The notes under the pieces are model-generated. The model was not told the DNA's origin. It saw only the letters and a list, made by a program, of their open reading frames with translations, and ran no database searches. This document shows, in pieces, positions 19,584 to 58,871 of a stretch of 64,000 nt of DNA; position 1 is the first letter of the stretch; each line of letters begins with the position of its first letter. Both the position numbers and the translations under genes were made by a program. This stretch comes from Lamellibrachia satsuma (taxonomy: Eukaryota > Annelida > Polychaeta > Sabellida > Siboglinidae): NCBI GenBank assembly GCA_033239005.1, contig BSQZ01000104.1, positions 1,479,501 to 1,543,500 of the forward strand, read 5' to 3'.

Positions 19584-19621
<38 letters not shown>

Positions 19622-19667
19622 TATCTTCTATTGCACTAAAATCATAAAATGCATGCATGCATGCATA

Positions 19668-19725
<58 letters not shown>

Positions 19726-22700: not shown

Positions 22701-25700
22701 ACTAAATTTGAGGGCAATAAATCAGAACATTTAAGGCAGTTATTTGTAACTCCTGAAATGATAGCAAAGAAAATTAAGAAAATGAAAGATAATAAATCAC
22801 CTGGAGTTGATGGGATACCACCAAAACTACTTAAGGAAATTGTTGAGCAAATTAGTACGCCACTTGCAAAATTGTTTAACTTGTCACTAGAAGAAGGAAT
22901 AGTTCCTTCAGAATGGAAAGAAGCAAATATTACACCGCTATTTAAGAAGAGTTCGAGGAAAAAGCCAGAAAATTACAGACCAGTGAGTTTAACATGAGTT
23001 GTATGTAAATTACTCGAAACATTAATTAGAGACCACATGGTGGAATTCCTTGTAAAACATAAATTAATAAATACATCTCAACATGGGTTCCTAAAAGCAA
23101 TGTCATGTCTAACCAATCTCTTATGTTTTTTTGCAGAAATTACAAAGTGGGTAGATGACGGGTCACCAGTGGATGTTGTTTATTTACATTTTCAGAAAGC
23201 TTTTGATAAAGTGCCACATCAAAGATTGTTACTTAAACTAAAAGCCCATGGTATAGGTAATGATGTAATCAACTGGATAGAAAAGTGGCTTACACATAGA
23301 AGACAGAGAGTAATAGTAGATGGTGAGATTTCCAATTGGAAATAGGTTTTGAGTGGGGTACCACAGGGATCAGTATTAGGCCCTATACTGTTTTTAATAA
23401 ATATAAATGATTTGGAATGTGACATATCTCGCAAAGTACTCAAATTTGCAGATGACACAAAAGTATTCAGAAAGGTTACTAATGATACAGATAAACAAAG
23501 TTTACAGGATGATCTAGATAAATTAGTTAAATGGCAAATGTTATTAAATTTTGGGAAGTGTAAATGTATACACATAGGACATGGAAACATGGACGAAGAA
23601 TATAAAATGGGGGATGCTGTACTAGGTAGAACCACACAAGAAAAGAACTTAGGAGTAACATTTAGCGCTGACTTGAAAGTTTCAGAGCAATGTGGGATTG
23701 CTGCTTCAAAAGGAAATCAAATTTTTGGGCTAATTAGGAGAACTATCATGTATAAGGAGAAACAATTAATTGTACCCCTGTACAAAGCAATAGTTAGACC
23801 ACATTTGGAATATTGTATTCAGGCATGGAGGCCGTATCGGAAAAAGGACACAGACAAGCTAGAAAGAATACAACGAAGAGCAACTAAACTGATTCTAGAA
23901 TTGAGAGACATTAGTTACGAAAGTCGCTTATTACAATGTGGTTTGACAACACTAGAGACCAGGAGACTTAGAGGAGACCAAATAGAAGTATTTAAAATAG
24001 TGAACGGTTATGAGGATGTTGATAGGTATATGTTCTTCAAACTTAAAGAAGGCAGTAGAACCAGAGGACACAAAGCAGCATTAGTTAAGGAGCAGTGTAG
24101 GTTGGACATGAGAAAGTACTCTTTCTCACAGAGGGTGATAAATGATTTGAACAAACTGCCAAATGATTGTGTTAATGCTAGTAGTGTGAATATGTTTAAA
24201 AATAGAATTGACATATATTTGATAAGGGCGGGCTACACATAGATGAGAAAATTGTTGGACTCTCGATAAGCCAATGGCTTCCTTGTCCATTTGCCATCCG
24301 GAACTTGTTGTTTGGGATGGCAATATTGTTAAATCTTGTTAAATCTTGTTAAATCTGGTTAAATCTTGTTAAAATCTGAGTGAACTGAAGCAATATGGAG
24401 TAAATAGAACTGCTCAAGCTTCGAAGCGGCAGTGTATTTAAACTGTTGGATATGTTAACAAGAACTGTTATTAGTTTTATTTAGGTTTCCTTGCTAGTAC
24501 AGAGAAACATCTAATAATAATGAACTTCTATTGCGTCTATATCCTCAGGAACCTGCGATCAGAGACGCAACAAACCAGAATCATTAAACATAATCATGAA
24601 CAGGGACACTCAAAAGTCATTATCAGAACGAGGGACCACCGAAGATTTATGGTGGAATGCAATTTGGAATAAATATGTCTTGAGTTTGTTTAGGAAGGTA
24701 GCTAAGTATATCATTTCATGACTCGATACATGTGATTCAACAGGAAAGGGAGCGTCATTGTTGACTTCTTTCTGTGGGTGGATTCAACCCTCGACAATAA
24801 GGACGTGCTACAGGACATCCTCAGGAAGGTCCCATTCAGTATTGGAGGACACGCTGTTGATCTGAAGAGCGTCAGGTTGTCAGGTAAGACCACCACCACC
24901 GCCGCCGCTGCCACTGCAGTTGCTAGAGCTACTGCTAGAGCTAGAGCTACGACGACGACTGCTACTACTAATAAAAATATTTTTTATTAAATTGTATCAT
25001 TAAATGATAAATGATTTTACTAAATGATCAGAATATGTTTTGGCTGCATTATCCATAGTAAACACAACAATTATATTGTCATTATGTGACACAACTTGAT
25101 GCAAAATCACTCATTTGTCAAATGTGTCACATCATTATTAATTTGTTTTTTTTTTTTCAGATAAAGAGTTAGAAGACGCAGGTAAGACATGTTTAAAACA
25201 AATGCTGACATATTACGTGTTAATTTTGTATTTTTTACAGTGTCAATTTACATTTGTAATGTTGGATTTAATATTACTATCAAAGGGTAATTCTTACTTT
25301 ATAATGATGCACAGACTTCCCGTGGCTCCCGGTGATCCTCGGCTCAGTGCTCGCTGTCATTTTGCTCATCGGTGTCATCATCTTGGTCGTGTGCAAGTGC
25401 AGCATCAGCCGCAACACGGCCTCTTCCAGCAACATTGACAGTCATCTCTACAGGTACTGTATTAATATAACAGTGACAGCCACCACTACAGGTATTGTAA
25501 TAATGTCAGTGATAACCACCACTACATGTGCTGTACCAATGTCACATTAACACCCTCAACTACATGCACAGTACAAATGTTACAGCGACAGCTACTATTA
25601 CAGGTACTGCGTTAATGTCACAGTGACAGCCACCACTACAGGCACTGCAGTAAGACCTAACGTCATGGTGACACCTGAGTACATTGTTTTCACGATCGCT

Positions 25701-28012
25701 ATCAACATCACCATTTAAGTTAACACTATATAAATAATATGCAGGCGTTGCATGTCCGCCGAATTATATGTATGTTTATCACATAATCTATACATTAATG
25801 TGGGGCAATACATTTAAATGAAAGATCACGGCATAGTCAAGCTATGGAGAAATTGAGAAGAGGACACATTTAGCAATTCTGCGTATATTGCCACAAATTG
25901 TTGCTAAAACATGGCATAAATCCAAATGTGTTGCACACGACCATAGCTGTACTGACATGATTACATTTTGAATAGTCGAAAACGTGCAGGATAATGTCCA
26001 AAACCCTATTTGGATTTCCCAGTGTCCCAAAACTGTCGTTTCGACATCTGTGGTACATTTGTACTTTTTTTAATGTATATTACTCTTGTCATAATCTATT
26101 AATTTGATATCAGTGCCATGTTTGTCTGTGAAGTTTTGCATGGATCGAAGTACAAAAGTGCTTGCTCTTTGCTCCTTATATATTAAAGTTCCTTATATTC
26201 ACACTTGATGTTTGCGTTACATGTTTATATAGAATACACTAATCATTCTTTTTTTGTCATATTCATCATAATGACATCTTCATTACGTAATATAATATTA
26301 TTTCTGCTGCAGGCCGAATGCCTTAAGGCGAGACAGACTCTGGCGACAGACACGTCCAAGAAATCCCATCGACCCACAATGTCAGGTGCATTGAAAATGT
26401 TTTGTCATACACAATGTGGAATTTCATGTACTGATGTATGAGTGTGCGGAGGCTACACATTGTACATTGTACACATGTATTGATGTTTGGGTATGTGTAA
26501 GGCATACACGTGTACACATGTACTGATATATGAGTGTGTGGAAGGCTACACATTGAACACGTACTGATGTTTGATTGTGTGGTAGGCTACACATTGTGCA
26601 CATGTACGGATGTCTGAGTGTCTGGAAGGCTACACATTGTACACTTGTATAGATGTCTGAGTGTATGGAAGGCTACACATTGTACACGTGTACTGACATA
26701 TGAGTGCGTGGAAGGCTACACATTGTACACAAAAAGTATTTAAACAGTTTACGCTGCTTAAACATCAATTTAAGTAAATTCCTTATAACTAATATTTATA
26801 TTATGATCTTTGGTTATTGTGTGTAATGAATACTATTAAACAATATGTTCCTTACTCGTGATTGTCTAAGTATCAGTATTATTGCTTTTTCATACAGCAC
26901 CCGGCACGCTGGTCACACACCCCGGTCCCAAAGCCTGCTAGTCAGAGACGAGACGACCAGTGGGTAAGCTTGTTTTTGTACATCAAGCTGCACCAAAGAA
27001 ATATATAAATGCATGTTTGCATCTTACATGCGTATCACTGAAAAAAATTTAAATTTTGACAATACACATATGATACAATGATACATTATGCATTACAAAC
27101 GGTATGCATTCCTTACAATAAAGAGGTCAAATCCAGTCATCCTGGTTATCTAATATTTGTGAAATATAAATTCAGTGGAATCATGAAAGGTATCTGATTC
27201 AACATTGACCCATTGTATTTACAAGTTTCAAGTTTATACGCAAGAAGGACACCTGTACACAACAGGCATAACTTATTATTGGTTTTGTAACCTATGCTAA
27301 CATATGACTCAAACACGCAGTCAACGAAACTGTGATTCACAAGCCCCACAAAGCAACATATCTTCAAACAAGTTAGACAAAACAGTAGTCAGCACTACAT
27401 AATACTATATTGTTTTTAGATGTTAACATCTTAAATAATCTAGTATGATGTTACAATACTACATATTCTGTTATATGGACTTATTGGCTGCCTAACTCGT
27501 TCACACTGTTGTAATGTTTTAAGCCCCGTATATGGGCATGGAGAAGTTTAAGGATGGTGATGAGTTCTTATAAAAGCATACTGAAAAACAACAAAATGTA
27601 TTAAATTAAATATAAATATTACATATTCTCATCGGTGAATTCATCCATATGTTGACAAATATTACATTGTATATGTCGATTTTGAGATTGGCTTACCCTC
27701 AGTTCTCCAAAGATTTATGGGCGATATACGTATTCGTATTATTATATCAACATTCTGGGTATCGTGTTGATTTTATGTTGCACACTGAAACATTTTCCTA
27801 TTCACTGAAAGGGAACCTTATACAATAATGCCATTTAAATGCTTACACGAAAATGTAATAAAACCATAAAATAACGTAAGTTAAGACATATCAAGGATGT
27901 GACGTTCGTTCAACACATAGATTATATTTAATTACAGGAAGGAAATAGTTGTAGTATATCCAGTATTAATAAATATACTTTATGTTTGCAGTCGTGGTCA
28001 ATGACTCGATGA
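3458..28012 (+). CDS. Gene model: multi-EGF, double-SEA, single-pass membrane protein (3' part, 16 exons)
   Basis: Sixteen exons with AG/GT borders join in phase into about 524 codons: five EGF modules (phase 1-1 exons), SEA domain 1 (exons 15919, 18120, 19086), SEA domain 2 (exons 20357, 21023, 24744), a 7-codon linker exon, a transmembrane exon and three tail exons ending in TGA at 28010-28012. Order and phases are what exon-shuffled adhesion or mucin-like proteins show. Expected role: a cell-surface protein with calcium-binding EGF stalk and SEA modules that self-cleave but stay associated. The signal peptide and upstream exons are not in the window. Both SEA domains keep the G-S-V-[VI]-V cleavage motif. 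Introns are loaded with mobile elements (two CR1, one jockey-like LINE, several TIR elements), none of which hits an exon. No specific orthologue is recognised, so no symbol is given. Confidence 0.85.
4060..5110 (+). mobile_element. 5'-truncated non-LTR retrotransposon (jockey superfamily, Crack/Daphne-like)
   Basis: A 244-codon open frame (4138-4872) plus about 25 upstream codons ([15 protein letters not shown]) encodes the part of a LINE reverse transcriptase downstream of the catalytic motif: thumb blocks [19 protein letters not shown] and [12 protein letters not shown], then the C-terminal region. The 5' half including the YADD box and endonuclease is missing, the usual outcome of abortive reverse transcription. 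The 3' UTR ends in AATAAACGATTT followed by a (TGTC)n tail at about 5083-5108. The open frame has no stops, so the insertion is not old. It sits in sense orientation in the intron between EGF exons 1 and 2. The clade assignment is by general resemblance only. Confidence 0.75.
5111..6284. other. Intron sequence with short GT/CTGT simple repeats, no exon seen
   Basis: Contains a (TGCG)n tract at about 5380-5415 and a CTGT-rich patch near 6095-6118. 6118-6285 resembles 11470-11600 on the other side of CR1 copy A. Nothing here looks like an exon. Confidence 0.5.
6391..9239 (-). pseudogene. CR1 copy A ORF2 (endonuclease and reverse transcriptase), frameshifted
   Basis: Segments in different frames together cover an apurinic-type endonuclease ([17 protein letters not shown], and SDHNQIHF near 8555), then the RT palm and thumb, and a C-terminal block ending RRAGYK. 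Breaks lie near 8970 in a G-run, near 8770, near 8610, near 7670-7540 and near 6845-6745. Function if intact: nicking of the target and target-primed reverse transcription. The family relation to copies B, C and D in this window is obvious from shared blocks such as [14 protein letters not shown]. Confidence 0.9.
9471..10535 (-). CDS. CR1 copy A ORF1: Cys-rich finger plus SGNH esterase, with internal Gly/Lys repeat
   Basis: 354 codons. N-terminus MMAPCKRQ followed by a Cys pattern C-x2-C ... C-x2-C within the first ~60 residues (PHD-like, incomplete). Residues ~115-215 are a degenerate repeat of [10 protein letters not shown] / TTGVKERG units, visible as a C/T-rich minisatellite at about 9885-10165 on the plus strand. 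The esterase part follows: [10 protein letters not shown] (catalytic Ser block), LPGAKIEAI, then HVGTNN. The frame breaks at 9471; the remaining piece with DGLHLSGKG (catalytic Asp/His block) is readable in a shifted frame near 9390-9350. Known from the family: ORF1 binds nucleic acid, and the esterase role is unclear. Confidence 0.82.
   Translation of the reverse strand: MMAPCKRQLKATRHVICGSCSNWVDFVKSGCEKSWAEVQADSFNFECRGCARMKEIEVELKELRLLVVAMVGRDQGSCASSSGEGTVDDKVGKDTRDARESSPQPGRKLRGGKVTGHRETGRKETGRKGTGGKTTGVKERGVGETGGKEKGVGETGGKEKGVGETGGKTTGVKERGVAETGGKEKGVGETGGKTTGVKERGVGETGGKEKGVGETEGKGSGQNVMEGIERKSYSAAVIEGVRKRARVFVGDSIVRKTDRVLNKGDDVVVCLPGAKIEAITERVKNIVGSGKGGSVLVHVGTNNVEREGTTAIVRKYRQLVRTLKQTRVEQVILSGILPVMGRRVINIEIVGDGN
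10850..11225 (-). repeat. Two diverged tandem units upstream of CR1 copy A ORF1
   Basis: 10850-11045 and 11046-11225 share, in the same order, GTAAACA(A)AC/CCC, CTCG(T/C)TGA, TACT(A)CCCTCTG-like, TTTC(T/C)TAATATATGTCTACAA and TAGTAATACTTATTCTA. They lie just 5' of ORF1 on the element's strand and could be promoter-bearing 5'-UTR monomers. The alignment was made by eye. Confidence 0.55.
11803..11916 (+). CDS. EGF module 2 exon (calcium-binding type)
   Basis: Acceptor TTTAACAG ends at 11802; donor GTTCG follows 11916. 114 nt, phase 1-1. Begins DVDEC, contains [16 protein letters not shown] and ends [10 protein letters not shown]. The Asp/Asn hydroxylation-type pattern (C-x-D-x4-Y-x-C-x-C) is complete. 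Confidence 0.92.
12066..12272. mobile_element. Miniature inverted-repeat element, copy 1 (~205 bp)
   Basis: The right end reads GGACTGGATACCGCG TTATAAGAACGTACC. Its reverse complement matches the left end of the copy at 21451 (GGTACGTTCTTA ... GCGGTATCCAGTCC), and this copy's own left end (GAACATTCTTATATAGCAC) is a diverged version. The core CCTGTTCATTCCAATGCCA ... TCTGGGAAGC ... GCTGCAATTACTGCAC is shared with copies at 21.5 and 53.5 kb. No coding capacity. Target duplication not identified. Confidence 0.7.
13350..13945. repeat. Foldback-type imperfect inverted repeat
   Basis: Left arm contains CATCGTCTCGATTTATAATAG (13432-13451). The right arm, read in reverse complement, contains CCCTCGTCTCGATTCATAATAG, with further matches in TGACAAACATCGGTTGCC versus TCGACAACCATCTGCTGCC and in a shared AACTGAAT. 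Arms of roughly 110 bp or more surround a ~200-bp spacer that includes GGCGGTTTACCCGTGAACAG. Identity of the element unknown. Confidence 0.5.
14035..14151 (+). CDS. EGF module 3 exon (calcium-binding type)
   Basis: Acceptor TTTTATAG, donor GTATAT. 117 nt, phase 1-1. [16 protein letters not shown] start and an IDMFSCQC core make it the nearest relative of module 1 (same length, same LSSPC). This suggests a two-module unit (1+2, 3+4) that duplicated. Confidence 0.92.
14762..14875 (+). CDS. EGF module 4 exon (calcium-binding type)
   Basis: Acceptor TTTTACAG, donor GTGCG. 114 nt, phase 1-1. [16 protein letters not shown] and [10 protein letters not shown] are nearly the same as in module 2, including the exon length. 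An N-glycosylation-type NGT lies in GYNGTHC. Confidence 0.92.
15528..15638 (+). CDS. EGF module 5 exon (no calcium signature)
   Basis: Acceptor TTTTAAG, donor GTAAGT. 111 nt, phase 1-1. Six cysteines in [14 protein letters not shown], then TCKC and GDSCEK. It lacks the D-x-D-E start, so it is a plain EGF module, as often found next to a SEA domain. Confidence 0.88.
15919..16058 (+). CDS. SEA domain 1, first exon
   Basis: Acceptor GATAG, donor GTAAGT. Phase 1 in, phase 0 out, 140 nt. Encodes the first strand and helices: [19 protein letters not shown], then a polar helix with [12 protein letters not shown]. The next exon continues it directly. Confidence 0.85.
17470..18018. mobile_element. 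GC-rich TIR element (hAT-like, non-autonomous), 549 bp
   Basis: Perfect 18-bp terminal inverted repeats: TAGTGCCCTGCGCGGGCC at 17470 and its complement ending at 18018. They continue imperfectly inward to about 45 bp (CCAAGCCCGG on both sides). Subterminal regions carry many GGGCC(T)GGGC motifs, and the centre is AT-rich. This is the layout of non-autonomous hAT elements. No clear 8-bp target duplication was found by eye, so the superfamily is tentative. It sits in the SEA-1 intron. Confidence 0.75.
18120..18184 (+). CDS. SEA domain 1, second exon
   Basis: Acceptor TCATTGCAG, donor GTAAGT. 65 nt, phase 0 in and 2 out. [19 protein letters not shown] leads into the strand before the cleavage turn. 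Confidence 0.85.
19086..19231 (+). CDS. SEA domain 1, third exon with GSVVV cleavage motif
   Basis: Acceptor TTGTTTAG, donor GTAAGA. Phase 2 in and 1 out. Begins N-S-G-S-V-V-V-T-Y: the G^SVVV sequence is the classical SEA autoproteolysis site known from MUC1-type domains. The remaining strand-helix-strand ([14 protein letters not shown]) completes the domain. Confidence 0.9.
19554..19642. repeat. Perfect hairpin around a (TA)n core, followed by AT/ATGC microsatellites
   Basis: The arms GATTTTAGTGCAATAGAAGA at 19554 and the exact complement ending at 19642 are perfect over 26 bp and then continue into the TA tract between them. (ATGC)n and (AT)n/(ATAC)n arrays follow to about 19760. It can extrude as a cruciform. 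Confidence 0.85.
20357..20475 (+). CDS. SEA domain 2, first exon
   Basis: Acceptor GGAACAG, donor GTAAGT. 119 nt, phase 1 in and 0 out. [17 protein letters not shown] is the linker/first strand and [12 protein letters not shown] starts the helix that continues in the next exon. Confidence 0.82.
21023..21093 (+). CDS. SEA domain 2, second exon
   Basis: Acceptor TTTTCAG, donor GTTAGT. 71 nt, phase 0 in and 2 out. [18 protein letters not shown] is the helix/strand counterpart of the 65-nt exon of SEA 1, with the same intron phases, so the two domains probably arose by duplication. Confidence 0.82.
21451..21651. mobile_element. Miniature inverted-repeat element, copy 2, cut by CR1 copy B
   Basis: Starts GGTACGTTCTTAAATAGCGC, the complement of the right end of the 12.1 kb copy, and carries the same core (CCTGTTCATTCCAACGCCAA). 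After the core it follows the 53.5 kb copy (CCATCACTGTCTAT) rather than the 12.1 kb one. The right end is missing where CR1 copy B begins at about 21652. Confidence 0.7.
21652..24376 (+). mobile_element. CR1 LINE copy B, 5'-truncated, degenerate
   Basis: Starts inside the endonuclease ([20 protein letters not shown] at 21657) and runs through RT to the C-terminal RAGYT and the TTGTTAAATC tail at 24328-24376. Open pieces: 22758-22997 ([10 protein letters not shown]), 23037-23345 and 23349-24242 ([18 protein letters not shown]). Stops and frameshifts occur near 21740, 22090, 22340, 22570, 23000 and 23346, so it is inactive. Sense orientation in the intron between the second and third SEA-2 exons (21093-24744). 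It accounts for most of this intron. Confidence 0.92.
24744..24883 (+). CDS. SEA domain 2, third exon with GSVIV cleavage motif
   Basis: Acceptor TTCAACAG, donor GTAAGA. Phase 2 in and 1 out. K-G-S-V-I-V-D-F places the scissile G^S at the same position after the intron as in SEA 1. The rest ([16 protein letters not shown], then VDLKSVRLS) completes the domain. Confidence 0.88.
25161..25181 (+). CDS. 21-nt linker micro-exon
   Basis: A T-run ending in CAG precedes 25161 and GTAAGA follows 25181. Phase 1-1, giving the acidic stalk DKELEDA between SEA 2 and the membrane. Supported by splice consensus and phase only. Confidence 0.7.
25315..25453 (+). CDS. Transmembrane exon
   Basis: Acceptor TGCACAG, donor GTACTG. 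Phase 1 in and 2 out. DFPWLP leads into [19 protein letters not shown], a clear single-pass membrane helix, followed by the stop-transfer CKCSISR. The exon end CTACAG plus donor is repeated in the following intron. Confidence 0.9.
25448..25650. repeat. Minisatellite made of the transmembrane exon's 5' splice site (38-bp units, ~5 copies)
   Basis: The exon end plus donor, CTACAG|GTACTG at 25448, recurs at 25486, 25522 (CTACATGTGCTG), 25560, 25598 (TTACAGGTACTG) and 25636 with spacings of 38, 36, 38, 38 and 38. The intervening sequence (GTGACAGCCACCA) is shared. Each unit contains a potential donor. Confidence 0.85.
26313..26385 (+). CDS. Cytoplasmic tail exon 1
   Basis: Acceptor TGCTGCAG, donor GTGCAT. 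Phase 2 in, 0 out. Arg/Pro-rich [19 protein letters not shown]. Another frame of the same exon is also open, so only the phase match to the transmembrane exon decides the reading. Confidence 0.65.
26425..26735. repeat. Minisatellite, ~47-bp units, ~6 copies
   Basis: Repeated GGAAGGCTACACATTGTACA(C) plus GTACTGATRTNTGAGTGT. Unlike the neighbouring arrays I do not see a splice junction in the unit. Confidence 0.85.
26898..26963 (+). CDS. Cytoplasmic tail exon 2
   Basis: Acceptor TTCATACAG, donor GTAAGC. 66 nt, phase 0-0. [20 protein letters not shown]: Pro/Arg-rich, no motif recognised. Confidence 0.65.
27992..28012 (+). CDS. Last coding exon with stop
   Basis: Acceptor TATGTTTGCAG, then SWSMTR and TGA at 28010-28012. 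The sequence from this acceptor to about 28057 is copied about 118 bp downstream (CTCAACAG followed by the same TCGTGGTCAATGACTCGATG at 28107), so the terminal exon start is duplicated. Confidence 0.6.
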   Translation, partial: SWSMTR

Positions 28013-45103: not shown

Positions 45104-45344
45104 TGTCTCTGCGGTTGCAGTGGAGGTGCTGTCGGTTGCAGGGGGAGGTGCTGTCGGTTGCAGGGGGAGGTGCTGTCGGTTGCAGGGGGAGGTGTTGTCG
45201 GTTGCTTCATGTTATTTCGATAGATGCACATCTATCCAATTGTGGTGGCTTCTTTCCCGATGGGTACATGTACTATGGGAGCGCATATTTTTTTTTACCT
45301 CATGGGTACTATCTGGATAGGTGTACCGGACTAAAGATGTGGTA

Positions 45345-45971: not shown

Positions 45972-46733
45972 GATTTTAACAAGATTTAACAAGATTGCCA
46001 TCTCGAACAACAAGTTCCACATGGCAAGTGGACAAGGAAGCCATTGGCTTATCGAGAGTCCAACAAGTTTCTCATCTATGTGTAGCCCGCCTTTATCAGA
46101 TATCTGTCAATTCTATTTTTAAACATATTCACACTACTAGCATTAACACAATCATTTGGCAGTTTGTTCCATTCATTTATCACCCTCTGTGAGAAAGAGT
46201 ACTTTCTCATGTCCAACCTACACTGCTCCTTAACTAATGCTGCTTTGTGTCCTCTGGTTCTACTGCCTTCTTTAAGTTTGAAGAACATATTCCTATCAAC
46301 ATCCTCATAACCGTTCACTATTTTAAACACTTCTATTTGGTCTCCTCTTAGTCTCCTGGTCTCTAGTGTTGTCAAACCACATTGTAATAAGCGACTTTCG
46401 TAACTAAGGTCTCTTAATTCTGGAATCATCTTAGTTGCTCTTCGTTGTATTCTTTCTAGCTTATCTATGTCTTTTTTACGATATGGCCTCCATGCTTGAA
46501 TACAATATTCCAAATGTGGTCTAACTATTGCTTTGTACAGGGGTACAATTAGATGTTTCTCCTTATACGTGATAGTTCTCCTAATTAGCCCTAGAATTTG
46601 ATTTCCTTTCGAAGCAGCAATCCCACATTGCTCTGAAACTTTCATGTCAGCATTAAATGTTACTCCTAAATCCTTTTCTTGTGTGGTTCTACCTAGTACA
46701 GCATCCCCCATTTTATATTCCTCGTCCATATTT
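45972..46733 (-). mobile_element. CR1 LINE copy C, strongly 5'-truncated, intact frame
   Basis: 217 codons of the ORF2 C-terminus without a stop, 3' UTR and TTGTTAAATC-type tail at 45972-45992. In the shared part it differs from copy D at about three residues (ADM/ADI, PYRKK/PYHKK, LIKAG/LIRAG), so it is the youngest insertion here. The 5' junction near 46733 lies in AATATGGACGAGG, with only a few bases of possible microhomology, next to a host sequence (GAGGGGCCAGAAA) that also occurs about 120 bp upstream. Confidence 0.93.
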
Positions 46734-46799
46734 CTGGCCCCTCGCTAACTGATGAACTTGTATATTTGATCAAGAAAGTGGGCACTGTTATTTCCCCAC

Positions 46800-46935
46800 C
46801 TGTGGTTCTGTTGGTTGAAGTACAATTGGGGTCAGTTTCTGGCCCCTCGCAGACTCCCTGGTTCATGCATGGGTTCTTTAGAATGTATACTTTGATGGTT
46901 AACAAATCATAACCCGTCCCGTCTTCTGCTGTCAT
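46800..46935 (-). CDS. Exon, Cys-containing, last recognisable one of the minus-strand gene
   Basis: Acceptor TTAACGTCACAG, donor GTGGGG. Phase 0 in and 1 out. MTAEDGTGYDLLTIKVYI then NPCMNQGVCEG. The open frame continues past the donor to the CR1 junction, so an unspliced reading is possible. Confidence 0.55.
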
Positions 46936-49900
46936 CTGTGACGTTAAGCAAAGTTCTTTAATGTCACTTGAATGTAACTTGCTCTTAGAGAAATCTGCAT
47001 TATGTTCACTTTCAGCTGTCAAATCCCTTGAATCTTGAGTGTCGACCACACACAGACATATAGCTGGAGGCACCACACACACAAACAAACAGATGGCTGG
47101 AGGCACCACACACAGACATATAGCTGGAAGCATCACACACAGACAGATGGCTGGAGGCACAACACACAGACATATAGCTGGGGGCACCACACACAGACAG
47201 ATGGCTGGAGGCACCACACACACACACATACAGATGGCTGGAGACAGACAGATGGTTGGAGGTACCACACACACAGACATATGGCTGAATGCACCATACA
47301 CAGACATATGGCTGGAGGTACCACACACAGACAGATGGCTGGAAGCATCACACACAGACAGATGGCTGTAGGCACCACGCCCAGACAGATGGCTGGAGGC
47401 ACCACGCCCAGACAGATGGCTGGAGGCCCCACATACAGACAGATGGCTGGAGGCGCAATGGAATTGGTCAAAGCATAAGATTTAGTGTGCACATTATCCA
47501 TTCTGACCCACCCATTTGTACAACATTATACATTACATATAATGGTGATTAACTGATGGTAAATCTGTTACATTTTATAAAACAGGACCATAACCAGTTA
47601 GTTGGACCACACAAAGTCCTGTATTGACGACTGCTCAATGTTACATTAATGGAAGTAACGCTACCTTTTGACAACAGTATGAACATATGTGTATGTGGTT
47701 CTCTCCCAAATACAATGATGTGCCTTACCTTAATGACATCTTCACCAATGTAACCTACAAATGGCCTGTATTTGAACAGTGTGACAACCCAGGCTAGCTT
47801 GCGCGTCACAAAATCCGTTCCACATGGGTTTGGCAGTGACACCTCTGTCATAGTGGCCAAACCAGAAATTAGTTTGGTGAGTTCATCCCATTGAGGGCGC
47901 CTTGTATCCCAGGACTGTGAGCAGTCTTGTTCAATGAGGTTGACGATCTTTACTTGGCAGTACAGTGTTAGATTACCATGTTGAGGTGGATCAGATTTCA
48001 GTGATATATCATCCGTGTAATCGGGATCATAAGCAGCCAGGATGTAAACCATATCCAGGGATGCAGAATTACGATTGGTGAAGGGCTTTGTCAAAAATAC
48101 ACTGCCACTTTAGGCTGTTATTCAACTTTTTGCTTAATTCATTCATGGTGGTGTAGCAGACGTAATTCTTTATCTTAACCAAAATCTACCTTAAAGTTAT
48201 CAGTGACATTGTCATACTTACATGTATGTCATTTATTTCTTTGGGGGTTTTCTCAAAACGATATCATTTCACATTTTGTGGCTATTTCTTGCAACATAAC
48301 CAGGTAAAAAACTCCAAATTTTATTAATCTGGAATATTACACAGTATTTCAACTACAATCTGTGAGGAAATGGTTAGTTTATCTTAAAAACTTCTATTGA
48401 AACTACTCAATTGAAGACAAGCATGCAATAGTCACCCCAGCTACCTTAATCAAGAGCCTATAAGTACAATATACTAAGTGACCTTTCACAACCCAATCTC
48501 CCACTTGTTCTTTAAGTAGGAGCATACAAGAACAATATACTAAGTGACCTTTCACAACTCAATCTCCCACTTGTTCTTTAAGTAGGAGCATACAAGAACA
48601 ATATACTAAGTGACCTTTCACAACTCAATTTCCCACTTGTTCTTTATGTAGAAGGAGCATACAAGTACAATATACTAAGTGACCTTTCACAACCCAATCT
48701 CCCACTTGTTCTTTAAGTAGGAGCATATAAGTACAATATACTAAGTGACCTTTCACAACTCAATCTCCCACTTGTTCTTTAAGTAGGAGCATACAAGAAC
48801 AATATACTAAGTGACCTTTCACAAGCCAATCTCCCACTTGTTCTTTATGTAGAAGGAGCATACAAGTACAATATACTAAGTGACATTTCACAACTCAATC
48901 TCCCACTTGTTCTCTAAGTAGAAGGCGCCTACAAGAACAATATACTAAGTGACCTCTCACAACCCAATCTCCCACCTGTTCCTCAAGTATCTGTCTGTCT
49001 TGTCTCTGGATGACTCTGGGTCGACAATGAATGACTTGAACATGTCCGACGCCCCCTGACTGGTACTGAGCAGTCAAGTCATCGACTGACAGAAAAACCC
49101 CGGTCAGCATCTTGTGACTGGTCTGATCTGTGAGTGCAAGAATCACTTTACACTTCAAGTCAGCTGTAATGTCTGTGTAAAGACTGACTAGGCTGTGAGT
49201 GCAAGAATCACTTTACACTTTAAGTCAGCTGTATTGTTTGTGTAGAGACTGACTGGGATGCTAGTGCAAGAATCACTTTACACCTCAGATCAGCTGTAAT
49301 GTCTGTGTAAAGACTGACTGGGCTGCAAGTACAATAATCATTTTACACTTTAAGTCAGCTGTAAGGTCTGTGTAGAGACTGACTGGGATGCGAGTGCAAG
49401 AATCACTTTACACTTCAAGTCAGCTGTAATGTCTGTGTAAAGACTGGTTGGGCTGTAATTGCAAGAATCATGTTACACTTCAAGTAAGTTGTAATGTCTG
49501 TGTAAAGACTGACCACTTGCAAAACACGCCACTTATGTGCATTTCCAACACATAAAATTGGGTAAAAATCATCCAATTTGTACAGTATGTGAAATTAATT
49601 ACTAAACTGCAAACTACGATGTATCATTTTTCATTATTAATATATGAAAAAACTTGTGACTCTGATATATTTGTGTACACTTGATGATCCTAATCAACAT
49701 AGGAACTGATGATCTCACTGAACCAATTTTGTAGTCAACTTACGTTTTGTTGTCTTCACGGTGACAGTGTTCTTTGTGTCACCAGATGTCACCAACTTGA
49801 GGGTCAGATCACCTGCCTCAGTCTTAGCCACAGTGGCAGTGTCACCTGTAGACAACAACAGTCAACCACACGACATTCTGATCAGACACATGCAACATGA

Positions 49901-51029
49901 CAGTTGACAGTAACAAGGGTTAATTTTATAAACTATGACTAAAATCATGGAAGTTATGACGATTGATAAATATCCTGTTGGTAGAGCAGAAATTAAAATG
50001 GCTGAACTGGCAGTTAATGTAGAAGTATTTCACTGACAGGCAAATGTATTTCGCATAACGAAAAAAGGATGCACTGGCAGTTAAATGTAGTAGAATACAT
50101 TATTGCCTCTCTCTAGCTGTCAGTCGTGGCAGAGAGTTCAATTGATCTGAAACACCACAACACAGTCAGATGACGAGGACAGTCAGGGCTTTGGTCATCA
50201 GGATCTAGAGAGTTCAATTGATCTGAAACACCACAACACAGTCAGATGATGAAGACAATCAGGGCTTTGGTCATCAGGATCTAGAGTGTTCAATTGATCT
50301 GAACCACCACAGTACAGTCAGATGATGAGGACAGTCGGTTTTGGTCATCAGGATCTAGAGAGTTCAATTGATCTGAAACACCACAACACAGTCACACGAT
50401 GAGGGCAGTCAGGGTTTTGGTCATCAGGATCTAGAGAGTTCAATTGATCTGAAACACCACAACACAGTCAGATGATGAGAACAATCAGGGCTTTGGTCAT
50501 CAGGATCTAGAGAGTTCAATTGATCTGAAACACCACAACACAGTCAGTTGACGAGGACAGTCGGCTTTGGTCATCAGGATCTAGAGAGTTCAACTGGTCT
50601 GAAACACCACCACACATTCAGATGAGGAGAGTGATATGATGTAGTATTTAAATGTGTTTACAGAACCATTATATACCAAATTTGTAATAGAAATTTATTC
50701 CCAGTGAATGAATTTCAGTGTTTCAAAGAATGTGGATATTATTTTGTATAACAAAATCAATTGAGCCTGTCAAGGGGAGTCTCCAGCTTAGTTCTGTCAT
50801 CAAGCTAGATACATCGTTGTGACACTTTTGTCACTTGTAAAAAATCTCAGTTTTTTTCTACTTATTAAATTTTAATAACTCTTTGTAAATGTGTCATAAT
50901 TTCACTGCAATTTCTAGCAACTTTAATATCACAATTGATTACAGCTCAAGTATTGTTGACAAATGCTGAATTTATATTAAATAAAATACTCAGCATGTTC
51001 AGAAAACAAAGGTTTATATTTATATGCAA

Positions 51030-51081
<52 letters not shown>

Positions 51082-53389
51082 TGATAAGACAGTCCTACTT
51101 CGTGGAACGTGGCTACATCCTGAGAATAGGCAGTAGTTCCAATGGCCGCCTGGAACTCAACTACTGGGCGAGAGCTTCCTTGGAATGGGGCTCCAAAACG
51201 ACACAGCTGAGTGGACGAGGGAGGAAACCTGCAAGTCACATAGTCAGAGGTGAGGCAATGTCACATCAACAGAGGCGAGACAATATCACATCAACACAGG
51301 TGAGACAATGTCACATCAACACAGATGAGACAATGTCACATCAACAGGGGTGAGACAATGTCACATCAACACAGATGAGACAATGTCACATCAACAGAGG
51401 TGAGACAGTGTCACATGAACACAGATGAGACAATGTCACATCAACACAGGTGAGACAATGTCACATCTACAGAGGTGAGGCAATGTAACATAAACAAAGA
51501 TGAGACAATGTCATATCACATGGCCGCATGTTTTATAATTGACAACACATTAATTTCTTCTGTACATGACAGTCATCTACCCCTATGCATTTTCAGAACA
51601 ATAGAAGAACATTGTCCTAATCTTGAAAGTGGTACATACGTAAAGAAGACATTCTCCAATGGCGCCACCCAACCGTGACTTTTGTAGATACCAACTGTGA
51701 CACTAGTGTCCTGGGAGACAGTTGTTTCGACAAGGAGTGCTTGCTGTCTCTCGTCAATGTACAACTTGAACTCCCAGTTCTCCTGCAGAGCAACACAGAC
51801 GTCACACACAAGACATCAACCACTGGGTCCTAACAATGAAAGCAACAGAGACGTCACACACAAGATATCAACCACTGGGTCCTAACAATGAAAGCAACAG
51901 AGACGTCACACACAAGACAACAACCACTGTGTCTGACAATGACAACAACACATACGTCACATACAAGAGAACAACCACTTTGTCTTACAATGATAGCAAC
52001 ACAGACGTCACACACAAGACAACAACCACAGTGTCTGACAATGACAACACAGAGACGTCACACACAAGACAACACCCACTGTGTCTGACAATGACAACAG
52101 AGACGTCACATACAAGACAATAACCACTGCATCTGACAATGACAGCAACACAGACATCACACACAAGACAACAACCACTGTGTCTGACAATGACAGCAAC
52201 ACAGACATCACATACAAAACAACCACTGTGTCTGACAATGACAACACAGAGACGTCATACACAAGACAACACCCACTGTGTTTGACAATGACAACAGAGA
52301 CGTCACATACAAGACAATAACCACTGCGTCTGACAATGACAGCAACACTGTGTGTGACAATGACAGCAACATAGACGTCACACACAAGACAACAACCATT
52401 GGGGCCGACAATGGATGAATATGACGCAAAGAAAATCATGAATAGTATTTACAATTAGTGAACGGAAATAGCTTTACTAAGCAAAATTAATGTAGCATAA
52501 CAAACAAACTGTAATATTACAGTTGGTAAAATTGCACTCACTTCATGAAACATAGACGTATCTTCATTTATGACCAACTTATACGTGTGTGTTTGCTCTG
52601 TAGGGTCAAATCTCAGCTGGCTGATTGTGTGTGAAGTCTTGTTTAACTTAGCTGACCACAGCACAACCCAGTCTGATGACTGCCCCTTGTAGGATGCATC
52701 TGACAATGACAATGGCTGGTATAAAGGTTGACATGTTTAAAATCATATAACAAATTATTGTTAATGTTGGAAAGGTTGACATGTTTAAAATCATATAAAA
52801 AAATATTGTTAACGTTGAAAAGGTTGACATTTAAAAAATCATATAACAATGTTCAGGTCATCATCAATTCATATCACAGCAAGAGATCTGGCCACATTAT
52901 GTTTGGAAGGGCCATTGGAAAGAACATTTACTGCCAAAAGGAGATTGTGTTAATTTTGACCCAGAAGAAGAAACTGATGTAAAAACTTAGGCAAGTTTAC
53001 ATCTGAGAAAATGCTAAACCTGTTTCCTTGAATGCATTAAGCAGTACAGTTAATATTCCACATATAAAACTATCAAATGTACTTCCTTACACATTACACC
53101 CAATGTATGTCCACCACATAAACCTGTCGCCATGGTGCCCTCCCTCCCACTCACTTGGGAATAGATCCTTACACAGTACACCCAATGTATGTCCACCACA
53201 TAAACCTGTCCCCATGGTGCCCTCCCTCCCACTCACTTGGGAATATATCCTTATACAGTACACACAATGTATGTTCACCCTATAAACCTGTCCTCATGGT
53301 GTCCTCCTTCCCACTCACTTGGCAATAGATCCTTACAAAGTATACCAAATGTATGTCCAACCTATAAACCTGTCCAACAAAAGGAAAGG

Positions 53390-53468: not shown

Positions 53469-55050
53469 ATAATGTGGTATCTCGTCCGTAAAACTACTAA
53501 AGGCACACTTCACACCTGGCAGACCTGTTAATTCCAGCATCAATTCAACATATCAGGAAGCGTTCAGCCATGTTACAATTACTGCATAAAACCTATTCAT
53601 TCACACATATCCATCACTGTCTATAACCAAGACAGCTGATTATACTGCGGTAACATGTAGACGACAAGTGAACTGAACTGCCCAGGTTTAATCACAGCAG
53701 CTCTTGTGAAGTGAAGTATATGTGTCACTAGTTAATTAGCTGTATGGCATAACTTCCTTCCCACCCACCTGGTAATCTTGGAAGGCGACACCATCTTGTT
53801 TCTTCTGTTTAAAGTCATGCAAGTATTTGTGTACAAGTGGCATCCAGTGGGAGTCTGGACCAGTCATTGGGTAGATCTGCTGTGAACGTCTCCCTGGCTG
53901 ACGGCACATAGAGGAACACTCCTGGAACAAGACAGAGGCAATGTCACCTTCATAGATGACACTCATCCAAGTCTGAAGGCACATAGAGGAACACTCCTGG
54001 GACAAGACAGAGATAGTGTCACCTTCATAGATGACACTCATCCAAGGCTGAAGGCACATAGAGGACACTCCTGGGACACGACAGAGACAATGTCAACTTC
54101 ATAGACATTCATCCAAGGTTGAAGGCACATAGAGGAACACTCCTGGGACAAGACAGTGACAATATCACCTTAATAGATGACACACATCCAAGACTGAAGG
54201 CACATTGAGGAACACTCCTGGGACAAGACAGAGACAATGTCAACTTCATAGACATTCATCCAAGGCAGCCAATGTAGTGCTGTTTTTTGTGCCTTGTGTC
54301 ATTTATAATCAAGTTAACTCTCCATACAAAACTAACGCTGAAGTAAATATATCAATGTTTAAATTATTCTATTCCTGTTACATATGGCTTTTTAAATTAC
54401 ATCAAGAATACATTTGTAGAAACCCAGCCAAATATTGTAGTGTACAGTTACGTTTAAGATAAGTGAGTATCTCATCTGGCCAACCTTTAATCTCTGTCGT
54501 TGAGCCCTGGTATGTGGCACCTTCTTTGAAGTTGTCTCCATGTTTGACAGTGCCCCCAATGGGTGAAGCAGCATCCAGTAGCACAGATGGATTGAGGTTG
54601 TGAAGTTCGAGGTCAGCGCCATTAGTTGCTTGAAGGTCAATGAAATAGACTACAGATTCCTGGACATGACAGCCACATTATTAATACAAAAACCAGTTCT
54701 GATGATAATGTTAATAGCAGTTATAAGATGTATAACATAGCAGTGTTAACGTTAATAACACCAGTACCTATAGTAACTATCACAACAATGTAAAATATAT
54801 TAATCATTCAATCAGTTATGTTCGGTTAGTTATGTTGTTCTACTAAACCTTGAATTTTAAAGTTACTAACCAGGCATTGAATTTCATTCACTCTAAACGA
54901 CACTATTTAATCAATTTGGTTGCAAAATTATTAACACGGCTATGAAAAGTCTCCAGGCTGACAGTATGATGGTCTGGTGGGTCTCTTGAAACCTTACAGC
55001 ACATTCTTGAGTAACAGTTCCTCCTCCAAATATTACTACAGCCTTAGAAC
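46800..55050 (-). CDS. Gene model: unrecognised multi-exon protein (minus strand)
   Basis: Exons by splice consensus and phase, in gene order: 55050-54998, 54659-54485, 53921-53835, 52699-52542, 51782-51640, 51228-51099, [one missing], 49845-49744, 49163-48976, 48085-47729, 46935-46800. All joins but the one across the missing exon are phase-compatible. The product has alternating hydrophobic residues, looks beta-rich (VVYFIDLQATNGADLELHN, DWVVLWSAKLNKTSH, WEFKLYIDERQQALLVETT) and has few cysteines until CSQSW, NPCGTDF and NPCMNQGVC near the end. I do not recognise a family. The ends are open: the first exon may join the 55.5-57.3 kb gene, and the last joins nothing visible because CR1 copy C and debris follow. 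Nearly every intron holds a minisatellite. Confidence 0.6.
47039..47460. repeat. Minisatellite, ~27-30-bp units, ~14 copies
   Basis: CAGA(C/T)(A/G)TATGGCTGGAGGCACCACACACA variants. It lies in the intron between exons 47729 and 46935. Long plus- and minus-strand ORFs through it are repeat artefacts. Confidence 0.92.
47729..48085 (-). CDS. Large exon (119 codons) of the minus-strand gene
   Basis: Acceptor TTTTGACAAAG, donor GTAAGG. Phase 0-0. Contains LDMVYILAAYDPDYTDD, NLTLYCQVKIVN, CSQSWDTRRPQW and NPCGTDFVTRKLAWVVTLF. Four cysteines could pair. The largest conserved-looking block of the locus and the best query for a search. Confidence 0.7.
48459..48990. repeat. Minisatellite carrying the 5' splice site of exon 48976-49163 (66/69-bp units, 8 copies)
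   Basis: ATACTAAGTG starts at 48471, 48537, 48603, 48672, 48738, 48804, 48873 and 48942 (spacings 66, 66, 69, 66, 66, 69, 69). On the minus strand each unit reads ...GAACAAGTGGGAGATTG, a copy of the real exon end and donor GAGGAACAG|GTGGGAGATTG. Confidence 0.9.
48976..49163 (-). CDS. Exon flanked on both sides by junction-derived minisatellites
   Basis: Acceptor CATTACAG, donor GTGGGA. Phase 1 in and 0 out. DLKCKVILALTDQTSH, MLTGVFLSVDDLTAQYQSGG, then CRPRVIQRQDRQ. No family recognised. Its first ~35 nt and its last ~13 nt, with the adjoining splice sites, are each amplified in the neighbouring introns. Confidence 0.75.
49127..49520. repeat. Minisatellite carrying the 3' splice site of exon 48976-49163 (65-bp units, 6 copies)
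   Basis: TGAGTGCAAG-type starts at 49131, 49196, 49261, 49326, 49391 and 49456: exactly 65 bp each. On the minus strand every unit reads CAGACATTACAG|CTGACTTGAAGTG.., that is acceptor plus the first codons of the exon. The first copy is the real exon. Confidence 0.92.
49744..49845 (-). CDS. Short exon of the minus-strand gene
   Basis: Acceptor GTCTACAG, donor GTAAGT (strong). Phase 1-1, 102 nt. GDTATVAKTEAGDLTLKLV then Thr/Lys-rich strands. Joins in phase to exon 49163. Its upstream partner (phase 0 to 1) was not found between 51098 and 49846. Confidence 0.7.
50110..50640. repeat. Minisatellite, 74-76-bp units, ~7 copies
   Basis: GGATCTAGAG recurs at 50201, 50277, 50351, 50427, 50503 and 50577. 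On the minus strand each unit contains TTGTGGTGTTTCAG|A, which looks like a splice acceptor. The missing phase 0-to-1 exon may lie here, but no unit gives a good reading. Confidence 0.9.
51099..51228 (-). CDS. Exon of the minus-strand gene
   Basis: Acceptor GACTTGCAG, donor GTAGGA. Phase 2 in and 0 out. FPPSSTQLCRFGAPFQ, PVVEFQAAIGTTAYSQDVAT, ending TFHE. The end resembles MFHE of exon 52699-52542. Confidence 0.65.
51245..51510. repeat. Minisatellite (~26-bp units) abutting the acceptor of exon 51228
   Basis: GGTGAGACAATGTCACATCAACACA units, about ten copies, begin within ~15 bp of the splice acceptor. The last intron bases, CTCTGACTATGTGACTTGCAG, are a diverged unit on the minus strand. Confidence 0.88.
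51640..51782 (-). CDS. Exon of the minus-strand gene
   Basis: Acceptor TTGCTCTGCAG, donor GTATGT. Phase 0 in and 2 out. ENWEFKLYIDERQQALLVE, SVTVGIYKSHGWVAPLENV. Joins in phase to both neighbours. No domain named. Confidence 0.75.
51785..52420. repeat. Minisatellite (~51-bp units) abutting the acceptor of exon 51782
   Basis: GCAACAGAGACGTCACACACAAGACAACAACCACTGTGTCTGACAAT-type units, about twelve. The first unit starts 5-6 bp from the splice acceptor. Long ORFs on both strands are artefacts. Confidence 0.92.
52542..52699 (-). CDS. Exon of the minus-strand gene
   Basis: Acceptor CATTGTCAG, donor GTGAGT (strong). Phase 1 in and 0 out. ASYKGQSSDWVVLWSAKLN, SQLRFDPTEQTHTYKLVIN, ending SMFHE. 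Beta-strand-like periodicity. N-glycosylation site LNKT. Confidence 0.75.
52718..52855. repeat. Three ~51-bp tandem units next to exon 52699
   Basis: GGTTGACATGTTTAAAATCATATAA repeated three times, starting about 20 bp upstream of the acceptor on the gene's strand. Confidence 0.85.
53040..53490. repeat. ~80-bp tandem units followed by (AT)n
   Basis: Four units of AATGTATGTCCACCACATAAACCTGTC plus CCCTCCCACTCACTTGGGAATA (53100-53380), then AT-rich microsatellites to about 53471. Confidence 0.88.
53509..53640. mobile_element. Miniature element, copy 3 (core only)
   Basis: ACACTTCACACCTGGCAGACCTGTTAATTCC, then GGAAGCGTTCAGCCATG and ATCCATCACTGTCTATAACCA match the 21.5 kb copy. Terminal repeats are eroded. 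Confidence 0.6.
53835..53921 (-). CDS. Short exon whose acceptor is tandemly amplified
   Basis: Acceptor TCTTGTTCCAG, donor GTACAC. Phase 1-1, 87 nt. VFLYVPSARETFTADLPNDW then SRLPLDAT. A longer open frame with a GTGGGT donor at 53769 is possible in another phase, but does not join its neighbours. Confidence 0.55.
53911..54270. repeat. Minisatellite carrying the 3' splice site of exon 53921 (71-75-bp units, 5 copies)
   Basis: Unit starts at 53911, 53986, 54061, 54132 and 54207. On the minus strand each reads TCTTGTCCCAG|GAGTGTTCCTCTATGTGCC, the acceptor and exon start of the real copy. Confidence 0.92.
54485..54659 (-). CDS. Exon of the minus-strand gene
   Basis: Acceptor CATGTCCAG, donor GTTGGC. 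Phase 0 in and 1 out. ESVVYFIDLQATNGADLELH, NPSVLLDAASPIGGTVKHG, then STTEIK. Not recognised. Confidence 0.68.
54998..55050 (-). CDS. 53-nt exon
   Basis: Acceptor TTATTTTCAG, donor GTAAGG. Phase 1 in and 0 out. SKAVVIFGGGTVTQECA. It could also follow a phase-1 donor at 55600 in the upstream gene. Confidence 0.5.
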
Positions 55051-55525
55051 CTGAAAATAAAACACTACAAATATTATATACTGCAATATTTTGAGGATTT
55101 ATTGGGAGTATGGATATATGAATATTATAAGATTTTTCCAGTTAATTTTAAGATGGGTTATCCTGTATATGAACAAATTTTCTGTATATCCTGAGCTAAG
55201 ACTTGGAGAAAACAACTGTACATGTCTCTGTTAATTTGTATTCAGTAGTGGCTTCATTACCTGGAATAAGCCACTGTTTTGTTTCTACCAAAAATAATTG
55301 AATTGTTAATTGATTTAAAGTTAATTTTTAATTTAACTGAATAATTTGGGAGGTTAATTTAATTTAATTGACCTGAAAAATGTGTGAGGTTAGTTTAATT
55401 GGAACTTTTCTGAGTTAATTGTAATTTAATTAATTAACATTTCAAGTTAATTGCCTAATGCCTGGTACAGGTACAATTTATGCAAAAATATCAGCATCAT
55501 GATTTGAGCCTGGGCGTCCAACCAT

Positions 55526-57311: not shown

Positions 57312-57845
57312 GGGAATGATTATGTCTTCTGTAAACCACTTCAGGGTTAGCTACATATGGGGTTAGCTAAAGTTAGGGTTGCATAACTTCATTTCCTTGT
57401 TCCCAAGCACTTACAAAGTACTGCACACAACATGAAATTGGTATAGATATATGGTTAATAGACATTTTGGAAAGGCAACAGTTATTTTTGGTACTGAAAA
57501 TTGCTTAATGTAGATTTGTAGCTTACCACAAGTTCTTTCATACTATTTTAACACATGGACAATTAAAAAGTTGTGTTTATTAACAATTAAATATCATATT
57601 AAATATCAAAATGCGCAAAATATCAGCTTGTGTACATCAAATGTTATAGTATAAAACTAAAAAGTACATTTATTTGACATTTTCTATATTGAGTAGATCG
57701 GTTAAACAGTTTAAATAGTAATGGTGTTTAAACAGTAATGATCTTGTTGACTAGATAGAATCAATAAAATATATATAATCATATTTATACCTAGTATAAA
57801 TTGATTATAAACGGATTATAAACAAATACAAATCTAATTTCTAAC

Positions 57846-58871
57846 ATGGCGCCGTGCAAACGCCAAGTAAAGGCAAAACGTAATTTGCTATATTCTAGCT
57901 GCGATAGCTGGCAGGCGGATGATTTCCATTTCATGTGTAGGGGGTGTACGACAGTGAAATATCTGCAGGAGCACGTGATTGAGCTAAGGCATATGATTTT
58001 GATGATGACAGGGCAGGGTGAGACAGAAGTGAGCAGAGGTGGTGAGAATGATGAGAGCAGAGGTGGTGAGACCGAGGAGAGCAGAGGTGGTGAGACTGAG
58101 GAGAGCAGAGGTTTTGAGACCGAGGAGAACAAGGAGAGCTGTGGCAATGTGAGGGAGAAAGCTGGTAAGAAGAAAGATGACAGAAGGCAGAGAATGCAAC
58201 AAAAGAGAGGTAAGCGGGTGAATGGAGATGGATTGCCAGGTGGTAAGACAGTAAAGGTTGGTGATATGAGAGAAAGGGGGCATACTAGTAGTGTGCAGCA
58301 GGAAAGGAGCTTTGCTGATGTAGTATCACAGGGGAAAGCGAGGAAAGCCCGGGTATTTATGGGGGATTCCATCATTAGGAAAGTGGATAAAATTGTAAAT
58401 AGAGGAGATGACATAACAGTATGCCTACCAGGGGCAAAAGTAGAGGATATAGCAGAGAAGGCAGGACAGGTCATGGGTGGTGGCACGGGAGGTGCTGTTC
58501 TCATGCATGTGGGAACGAACAATGCAGATAAGGAGGGAATGTCAGCCATCATTGGTAAGTACAGGAGGTTGATCAAGACACTTAAAGAGGCACGAGTTGG
58601 GCAGATCGTATTGTCGGGGATATTACCAATAATGAGAGGCAGGGGTGAGGAATATAGGAACTGTAGAAGGATGGCGATCAACACACAGGTACAGAAGGTA
58701 TGTATGGAGGAGGGAGTAGGCTTTGTAGACATGTGGTTAAACTTTGTGGGAAGAGGTGACTTTTTCATGAGAGATGGACTTTATCTGACAGGGAAGGGCG
58801 CTGCAGTTCTTGCGTGTGAGTTTGTCAGAGTTGTCGACGAGGGCACAGGTACCATAGATTATTTAAACTAG
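57846..58871 (+). CDS. CR1 copy D ORF1: finger plus SGNH-type esterase, putative catalytic His replaced by Tyr
   Basis: 341 codons, MAPCKRQVKAKRN start. The Cys-rich finger is shortened compared with copy A (one C-x2-C, then CRGC). Residues ~58-100 hold a five-fold GGETEESR-type repeat. Esterase blocks: VFMGDSIIRK (Ser), LPGAKVEDIA, HVGTNNADKEG (Gly/Asn), and RDGLYLTGKG near the C-terminus. In copy A the last block reads DGLHLSGKG, so the His expected at this position of SGNH enzymes is Tyr here, a single CAT-to-TAT step. The Ser, Asn and Asp blocks are kept. The rest of the frame is clean. Confidence 0.88.
   Translation: MAPCKRQVKAKRNLLYSSCDSWQADDFHFMCRGCTTVKYLQEHVIELRHMILMMTGQGETEVSRGGENDESRGGETEESRGGETEESRGFETEENKESCGNVREKAGKKKDDRRQRMQQKRGKRVNGDGLPGGKTVKVGDMRERGHTSSVQQERSFADVVSQGKARKARVFMGDSIIRKVDKIVNRGDDITVCLPGAKVEDIAEKAGQVMGGGTGGAVLMHVGTNNADKEGMSAIIGKYRRLIKTLKEARVGQIVLSGILPIMRGRGEEYRNCRRMAINTQVQKVCMEEGVGFVDMWLNFVGRGDFFMRDGLYLTGKGAAVLACEFVRVVDEGTGTIDYLN

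Follow-up and report, generated by a model that had tools for sequence, protein, structure and literature searches.

Known minisatellites at splice junctions

Tandem repeats across an exon-intron boundary were reportedly described by Canestro et al. in 2002 as mirages in the amphioxus gene Adh3, and the arrays analyzed here resemble them in spanning the boundary and in copying splice signals into the intron. In the available part of one report, mirages are the junction-spanning minisatellites of amphioxus, found in Adh3 and two globin genes, with units of 10-72 bp in Adh3 and of about 10-160 bp over the published range (PMC3087553). Of the two Branchiostoma floridae globin genes treated there, BflGb6 and BflGb9, one carries an acceptor-side array and the other an array at a 3' exon boundary; globin RT-PCR and the Adh3 data reportedly suggest that splicing past the arrays is normal, and an intron-gain model was built on the globin mirages (PMC3087553, same part). 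A second paper, in its available part, describes repeats in lancelet PGBD5 and cites Adh and troponin C as further cases (PMC3902484). The amphioxus boundary minisatellites mentioned in the original prediction for the present locus do exist and have been published as mirages (PMC3087553, PMC3902484). The mirage reports that we found concern single cases and, in the parts available, contain no count against chance. The main text of the lancelet genome paper (PMC4284660) contains neither 'minisatellite' nor 'tandem repeat', and PMC2679011 contains neither 'minisatellite' nor 'mirage'.

The phenomenon itself is thus known from amphioxus; what is new here is that arrays flank one exon on both sides and that they are dense. 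The window, i.e., the whole 64-kb stretch of DNA analyzed, has seven junction arrays, distributed over two genes, and provides a first test for their excess. Comparison with the described systems, as far as the available parts of the sources reach, revealed the following likenesses and differences: (i) as in BflGb6 and BflGb9, an acceptor with the exon head or a 3' exon boundary is duplicated and many of the decoy splice sites keep AG or GT, but the two kinds of arrays occur there in separate genes, whereas here a single exon has both, one on each side, and arrays occur at several exons of one gene (PMC3087553); (ii) PGBD5 likewise has two arrays per gene, its 60- and 108-bp repeats abutting or overlapping splice sites, but these arrays are at different exons (PMC3902484); and (iii) intron gain by tandem genomic duplication also involves tandem duplication within a gene, but produces a new intron, whereas the repeats described here sit in existing introns (PMC4974935).

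Arrays on both sides of exon Eh

Exon Eh of the minus-strand gene occupies positions 48976..49127, or extends to 49163 with the upstream acceptor, and has the donor CAG|GTGGGA at its low end. Array A3 (49128..49513, minus strand) lies on its acceptor side, upstream, and consists of about six 65-bp units, six copies when the real junction is included. Tandem Repeats Finder reports it with a period of 65, 5.9 copies, 0% indels and a score of 569, and the aligned copies form six rows of 65 nt in strict register, with pairwise identity of 77-92%; the row adjoining the exon is 1 base off the consensus. Array A2 (48454..48989, minus strand) lies downstream and extends 14 nt into the 3' end of the exon. 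It contains eight copies of a 66/69-bp unit, the real junction again included, at spacings of 69, 69, 66, 66, 69, 66, and 66 bp; Tandem Repeats Finder reports a period of 66 with 8.0 copies and a score of 830, and a three-unit period of 201 with a score of 926. Each of the eight rows starts with the common 14 nt of exon, followed by 52 or 55 nt of intron. When the window was shuffled 20 times with dinucleotides preserved, the score of arrays with a period of 20 or more never exceeded 62.

The exon part of the real A2 copy is identical to the decoy consensus at 11 of 14 positions, the next best 14-mer of Eh reaching 7; of the 63980 14-mers on the strand, only 16, including the copies in the array itself, agree with the decoy exon part at 11 or more positions. 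Upstream of these 14 nt, the exon has no match to the A2 unit. Matches between neighboring copies were also counted per 10 nt. At the donor, the first intron block has 10, the two blocks that make up the last 20 exon nt have 6 each, and the count is 0 beyond them; at the acceptor, it is 7-10 up to 49128 and then 2-3. By this count, the copy-to-copy similarity stops within the last 20 nt of Eh at the donor end and at position 49128 at the acceptor end. We considered a degenerate seventh 65-bp copy within Eh and rejected it, since 220 of 500 shuffles were as good for 49127-49060 and 73 of 500 for the whole exon.

Both 49163 and 49128 are preceded by AG and are in frame with the upstream exon Eg, with no stop; the A3 unit carries 36 nt of exon with the former acceptor and 0 nt with the latter. 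The codon score, trained on 380 codons from other hand-called exons, is mildly positive on both sides of 49128 (0.20 bits per codon for 49163-49128 and 0.32 for 49127-49066) and leans to the acceptor at 49163 without deciding between the two. The remainder of the exon (49065-48976) scores best in another frame (0.39 versus -0.15 bits per codon), and therefore Eh holds an internal frame switch near 49065. The repeats at Eh are confirmed; the exon borders given for it are those that we infer from the sequence.

The original prediction that the 5' splice site with the exon end is repeated eight times at 66/69 bp was confirmed both by Tandem Repeats Finder and by the row alignment, with 14 nt of exon in the unit. 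For the other side, six repeats of the acceptor with about 35 nt of exon at 65-bp spacing had been proposed: the six in-register rows bear out the repeat, and its exon content holds only if the acceptor is at 49163. The count of six acceptors is correct when the exon-adjoining one is counted, but in the 49163 register the outermost copy reads AA rather than AG. The claim that both arrays were built from sequence at the edges of Eh is supported.

Other arrays of the minus-strand gene

The exons of this gene were called by hand, using splice dinucleotides, open frames and phase, after the arrays had already been listed. In addition to Eh, they are Ea (54998-55050), Eb (54485-54659), Ec (53769..53921, acceptor TTCCAG|GAGTG and donor CCAG|GTGGGT, with an internal frame switch), Ed (52542-52715), Ee (51640-51782), Ef (51099-51228), Eg (49744-49845), Ei (47729-48101), and Ej (from 46935 down), all on the minus strand. 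The phases fail to chain between Eb and Ec and between Ef and Eg, and thus exons may be missing. The frame switches in Eh (49065) and Ec (53921-53769) may reflect a sequence error, an allele or a decayed gene. A Pfam search with 7 peptides or reading frames of the minus-strand stretch and a PDB search with one joined peptide gave no family above the cut-off.

Four further arrays of this gene are found at acceptors, all on the minus strand. Array A9 (53896..54266) has 75-bp units that run across the Ec acceptor and include 26-30 nt of the exon, with four decoy acceptors, all CAG; the matches per 10 nt between neighboring copies are 10, 9, and 7 over the first 30 exon nt and then 3. The other three end shortly before the exon: A7 (52723..52849, 48-bp units) 7 bp from the Ed acceptor, A6 (51789..52348, units of about 51 bp) 6 bp from the Ee acceptor, and A5 (51248..51518, 25-bp units) 19 bp from the Ef acceptor. 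At Ed, Ee and Ef, the matches drop to 5-6 per 10 nt in the last 10 intron nt. Three arrays of the same strand count against an excess at junctions: A4 (50131..50629, 76-bp units) and A8 (53084..53375, 82-bp units) are 285 and 368 bp, respectively, from the nearest called junction, and A1 (47045..47454, 27-bp units) is 109 bp from the Ej acceptor.

The A4 unit resembles 40 nt inside Ed (score 32; none of 300 dinucleotide shuffles, the best of which reached 31, and none of 356 random segments was as good), and A4 sits where the phases suggest a missing exon. One A6 copy and the head of Ed (52715) have 17 identical nt in common (0 of 300 shuffles as good).

A second gene with a junction array

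A plus-strand gene at 15919-26962 probably encodes a SEA-domain membrane protein. Three of its exons, joined by hand, match the Pfam SEA family PF01390 (E 7.3e-6; 26.5 bits against a cut-off of 26.4). An EGF exon (PF00008, E 1.8e-9) at about 3517, upstream, may belong to the same gene. The gene was examined only after its array had been listed by Tandem Repeats Finder.

Its transmembrane exon (25315..25453, plus strand) ends in the donor CTACAG|GTACTG at 25453. Array B1 (25432..25647, plus strand) consists of 38-bp units that repeat this donor with about 22 nt of the exon. In the comparison of the B1 unit with the transmembrane exon, the match corresponds to the last 22 exon nt, and 0 of 1000 shuffles were as good, or 1 of 200 under stricter scoring. 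The second array of the gene, B2 (26425..26731, plus strand, 43-bp units), starts 39 bp past the donor of exon 26313-26385 and counts against an excess.

Relative to the called borders, the seven junction arrays are thus of two kinds. Units that cross the junction, and so contain both exon and intron as mirages do, are those of A9 (26-30 nt of exon), A2 (14 nt) and B1 (about 22 nt), all with hand-called exon borders, and of A3 if the acceptor is at 49163. Units that stop less than 20 bp short of the junction are those of A5, A6, and A7, and of A3 if the acceptor is at 49128. The unit lengths of all seven (25 to 75 bp) fall within the published range.

Comparison of repeat units and exons

The 11 unit consensuses were compared with 14 exons, i.e., in 154 pairs. 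A9 and its own exon Ec form by far the best pair (z 18, exon nt 1-26), and B1 matches its own transmembrane exon at the very end of the exon (z 5.0); for the A2 and A3 units, the own exon Eh is not singled out in this comparison. The z value is not a specific measure, since several non-adjacent pairs reach z 4-8, among them A4-Ed (8.2), A6-Ed (6.5), and B1-Ee (4.9).

When nine units were compared with each other on both strands, the 72 comparisons revealed no clear common family, which makes a mobile repeat unlikely. A4-A1 scores 28 versus 26 for the best of 100 shuffles, and A5-A9 scores 26 versus 27; with the former pair barely over its shuffles and the latter under them, we claim no kinship among the arrays. 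Every array seems to have grown in place, which the comparison of units with exons supports for A9 and B1.

Position of arrays relative to junctions

We used the following strategy to measure the preference of arrays for junctions. Fourteen distinct arrays of period at least 24 and score at least 150 were retained, having been merged by hand, with the thresholds set afterwards. Eleven of the 14 lie in called introns and form the tested set; two arrays in LINE-like open reading frames (9881-10183 and 58017-58128) and one in a stretch without a called exon (34425-34585) were left out, as were arrays below the thresholds, e.g., 16110-16149, 28041-28099, 45112-45205, and 55327-55400. In the placement test, each array was put at random inside its own intron, and the distance from array edge to junction was scored; array-free introns (e.g., Ea-Eb) carry no weight in it.

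For both genes together, 6 of 11 arrays lie within 10 bp of a junction versus 0.82 expected (P 5e-5), and 7 of 11 within 30 bp versus 2.30 expected (P 0.0013); the remaining 4 of 11 are more than 30 bp away from any called junction. For eight arrays of the minus-strand gene alone, the counts are 5 versus 0.62 expected within 10 bp (P 7e-5) and 6 versus 1.75 within 30 bp (P 0.00075), and with intron Ei-Ej added they are 5 of 9 versus 0.68 (P 1.5e-4) and 6 of 9 versus 1.91 (P 0.0024). Removal of A2 and A3 leaves 4 of 9 arrays of both genes within 10 bp (0.66 expected, P 0.002) and 5 of 9 within 30 bp (1.87 expected, P 0.017), and in the minus-strand gene 3 of 7 (0.52 expected, P 0.0097) and 4 of 7 (1.47 expected, P 0.030), respectively. 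Use of the acceptor 49163 in place of 49128 does not change the placement counts.

A laxer null, with random non-overlapping placement over the whole minus-strand gene, included the array 55327-55400 and excluded the second gene. Of the 10 arrays, 3 lie within 10 bp (1.12 expected; 422 of 5000 simulations as high), 5 within 20 bp (2.19; 194 of 5000), and 6 within 30 bp (3.16; 204 of 5000), within 50 bp (3.99; 653 of 5000) and within 100 bp (5.77; 2954 of 5000). This null is exceeded weakly, with P about 0.04-0.08.

Origin of the arrays

We consider it likely that the arrays are mirages, i.e., minisatellites seeded at splice junctions, then multiplied and neutrally tolerated. The following scenario is consistent with the observed units: (i) the minisatellite would be seeded when a block that spans an exon-intron junction, or lies right at it, is duplicated in tandem, (ii) the original junction would stay beside the exon body while the extra copies fall on the intron side, (iii) the exon-adjoining copy of the junction would remain the working splice site, leaving the mRNA unchanged, (iv) replication slippage or unequal exchange would add further copies, and (v) the array would be free to grow, shrink and decay, and the decoys might decay with it. 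The extra copies would be removed with the intron because the duplicated block lies on its intron side, and the array would be free to change because the mRNA stays the same. Erosion of the intron until pre-existing arrays touch the exons was rejected, since A9, A2, and B1 carry exon sequence.

With neutral tolerance alone, arrays would be expected at any place in an intron, and the excess at junctions is left unexplained. The original prediction had raised a mechanism that starts tandem duplication at splice junctions. In such a mechanism, junctions would raise the rate of tandem duplication and arrays would preferentially be born there, with the pyrimidine tract, R-loops, co-transcriptional splicing, or a nucleosome edge as candidate causes; it would complement the mirage explanation rather than exclude it. 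The preference of array edges for junctions under the within-intron null, seen in two genes on opposite strands, and the location of 5 of the 7 junction arrays at acceptors (the 2 at donors being A2 and B1) speak for it, whereas the numbers are small and the laxer null is only weakly exceeded. We take this mechanism seriously without expecting it to hold. Slightly less probable is its extension to the whole genome, with splice junctions as birth sites of minisatellites at a raised rate, in many genes, from unrelated sequences and with exons flanked on both sides. If the excess does hold genome-wide, tandem duplication would have a mutational hot spot at splice junctions, and this would affect the growth of introns, the origin of new introns and errors in gene models.

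Intron gain or conversion of exon to intron, in which the arrays would be remnants of duplicated exon sequence turned intron, has been proposed for amphioxus globins (PMC3087553) but appears improbable here. It draws on the likeness of A4 to 40 nt in Ed, on the exact match between A6 and Ed, and on two weak matches of units to the exon across the intron among the 154 comparisons (A6-Ed, z 6.5, and A7-Ec, z 4.0). However, the units of 5 of the 7 junction arrays (A9, A5, A3, A2, and B1) show no likeness to the exon across the intron, and the eight arrays of the minus-strand gene outside intron Ei-Ej fill 12-74% of their introns, none of them reaching both ends.

We also find it unlikely that the pattern is an artefact of wrong exon calls, a pseudogene, or an assembly error, as the frame switches in Ec and Eh and the unchained phases might suggest. 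An automatic exon scan, which was blind to the arrays and used a codon model trained on the hand-called exons, placed Eh at 49192 to 49036, kept the hand-called donor of Ec but put its acceptor inside the array at 54047, chose another donor for Eb, and listed neither Ea, Ef nor the transmembrane exon. The same scan, trained as it was on these exons, agreed with the hand calls at both ends of Ed, Ee and Eg and at one end each of Eb, Ec, Ei and Ej; moreover, the second gene has its SEA match, just over the cut-off, and the divergence among copies, 8-23% in A3 and 0-15% over 54 nt in A2, is not that of a simple assembly duplication.

Decoy splice sites

The seven decoy donors of A2 all read CAA|GTGGGA, whereas the real donor is CAG|GTGGGA; GT is kept in 7 of 7 and the G at -1 is absent from 7 of 7. 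Among the five decoy acceptors of A3, AG is missing from two in the 49128 register and from one in the 49163 register, and in A9 it is kept in 4 of 4. Reading on from the decoys, a stop is reached within the decoy part at all five A3 acceptors in either register and at 7 of 7 or 6 of 7 A2 donors depending on the frame. Regular use of the decoys would be costly, because nearly every one of them brings a stop codon. Selection for redundant splice sites, which the original prediction offered as an alternative and which would keep spare donors and acceptors as back-ups or for splicing regulation, was rejected as very improbable: many decoys do retain AG or GT (4 of 4 in A9, 7 of 7 in A2), but their signals are imperfect, with the -1 G gone from all decoy donors, AG lost from some acceptors, and the stops described above.

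Other elements in the window

A search of Rfam gave no match. Frames that look like a LINE with reverse transcriptase were found at 6394-10550 (minus strand), 21468-24239 (plus), 57822-61729 (plus), and 46079-46744 (minus), and these LINE-like frames may be CR1-like; a Pfam search with the frame at 46079-46744 gave no match. The 15-mer GCGAGGGGCCAGAAA, noticed by eye, occurs twice in 46731-46850 on the minus strand, once in Ej and a second time directly ahead of the LINE-like fragment. A fragment of a DDE transposase is located at 38085-38951 on the minus strand (PF03184, E 3.5e-15), and an AC microsatellite of 553 copies with 99% matches occupies positions 144-1249.
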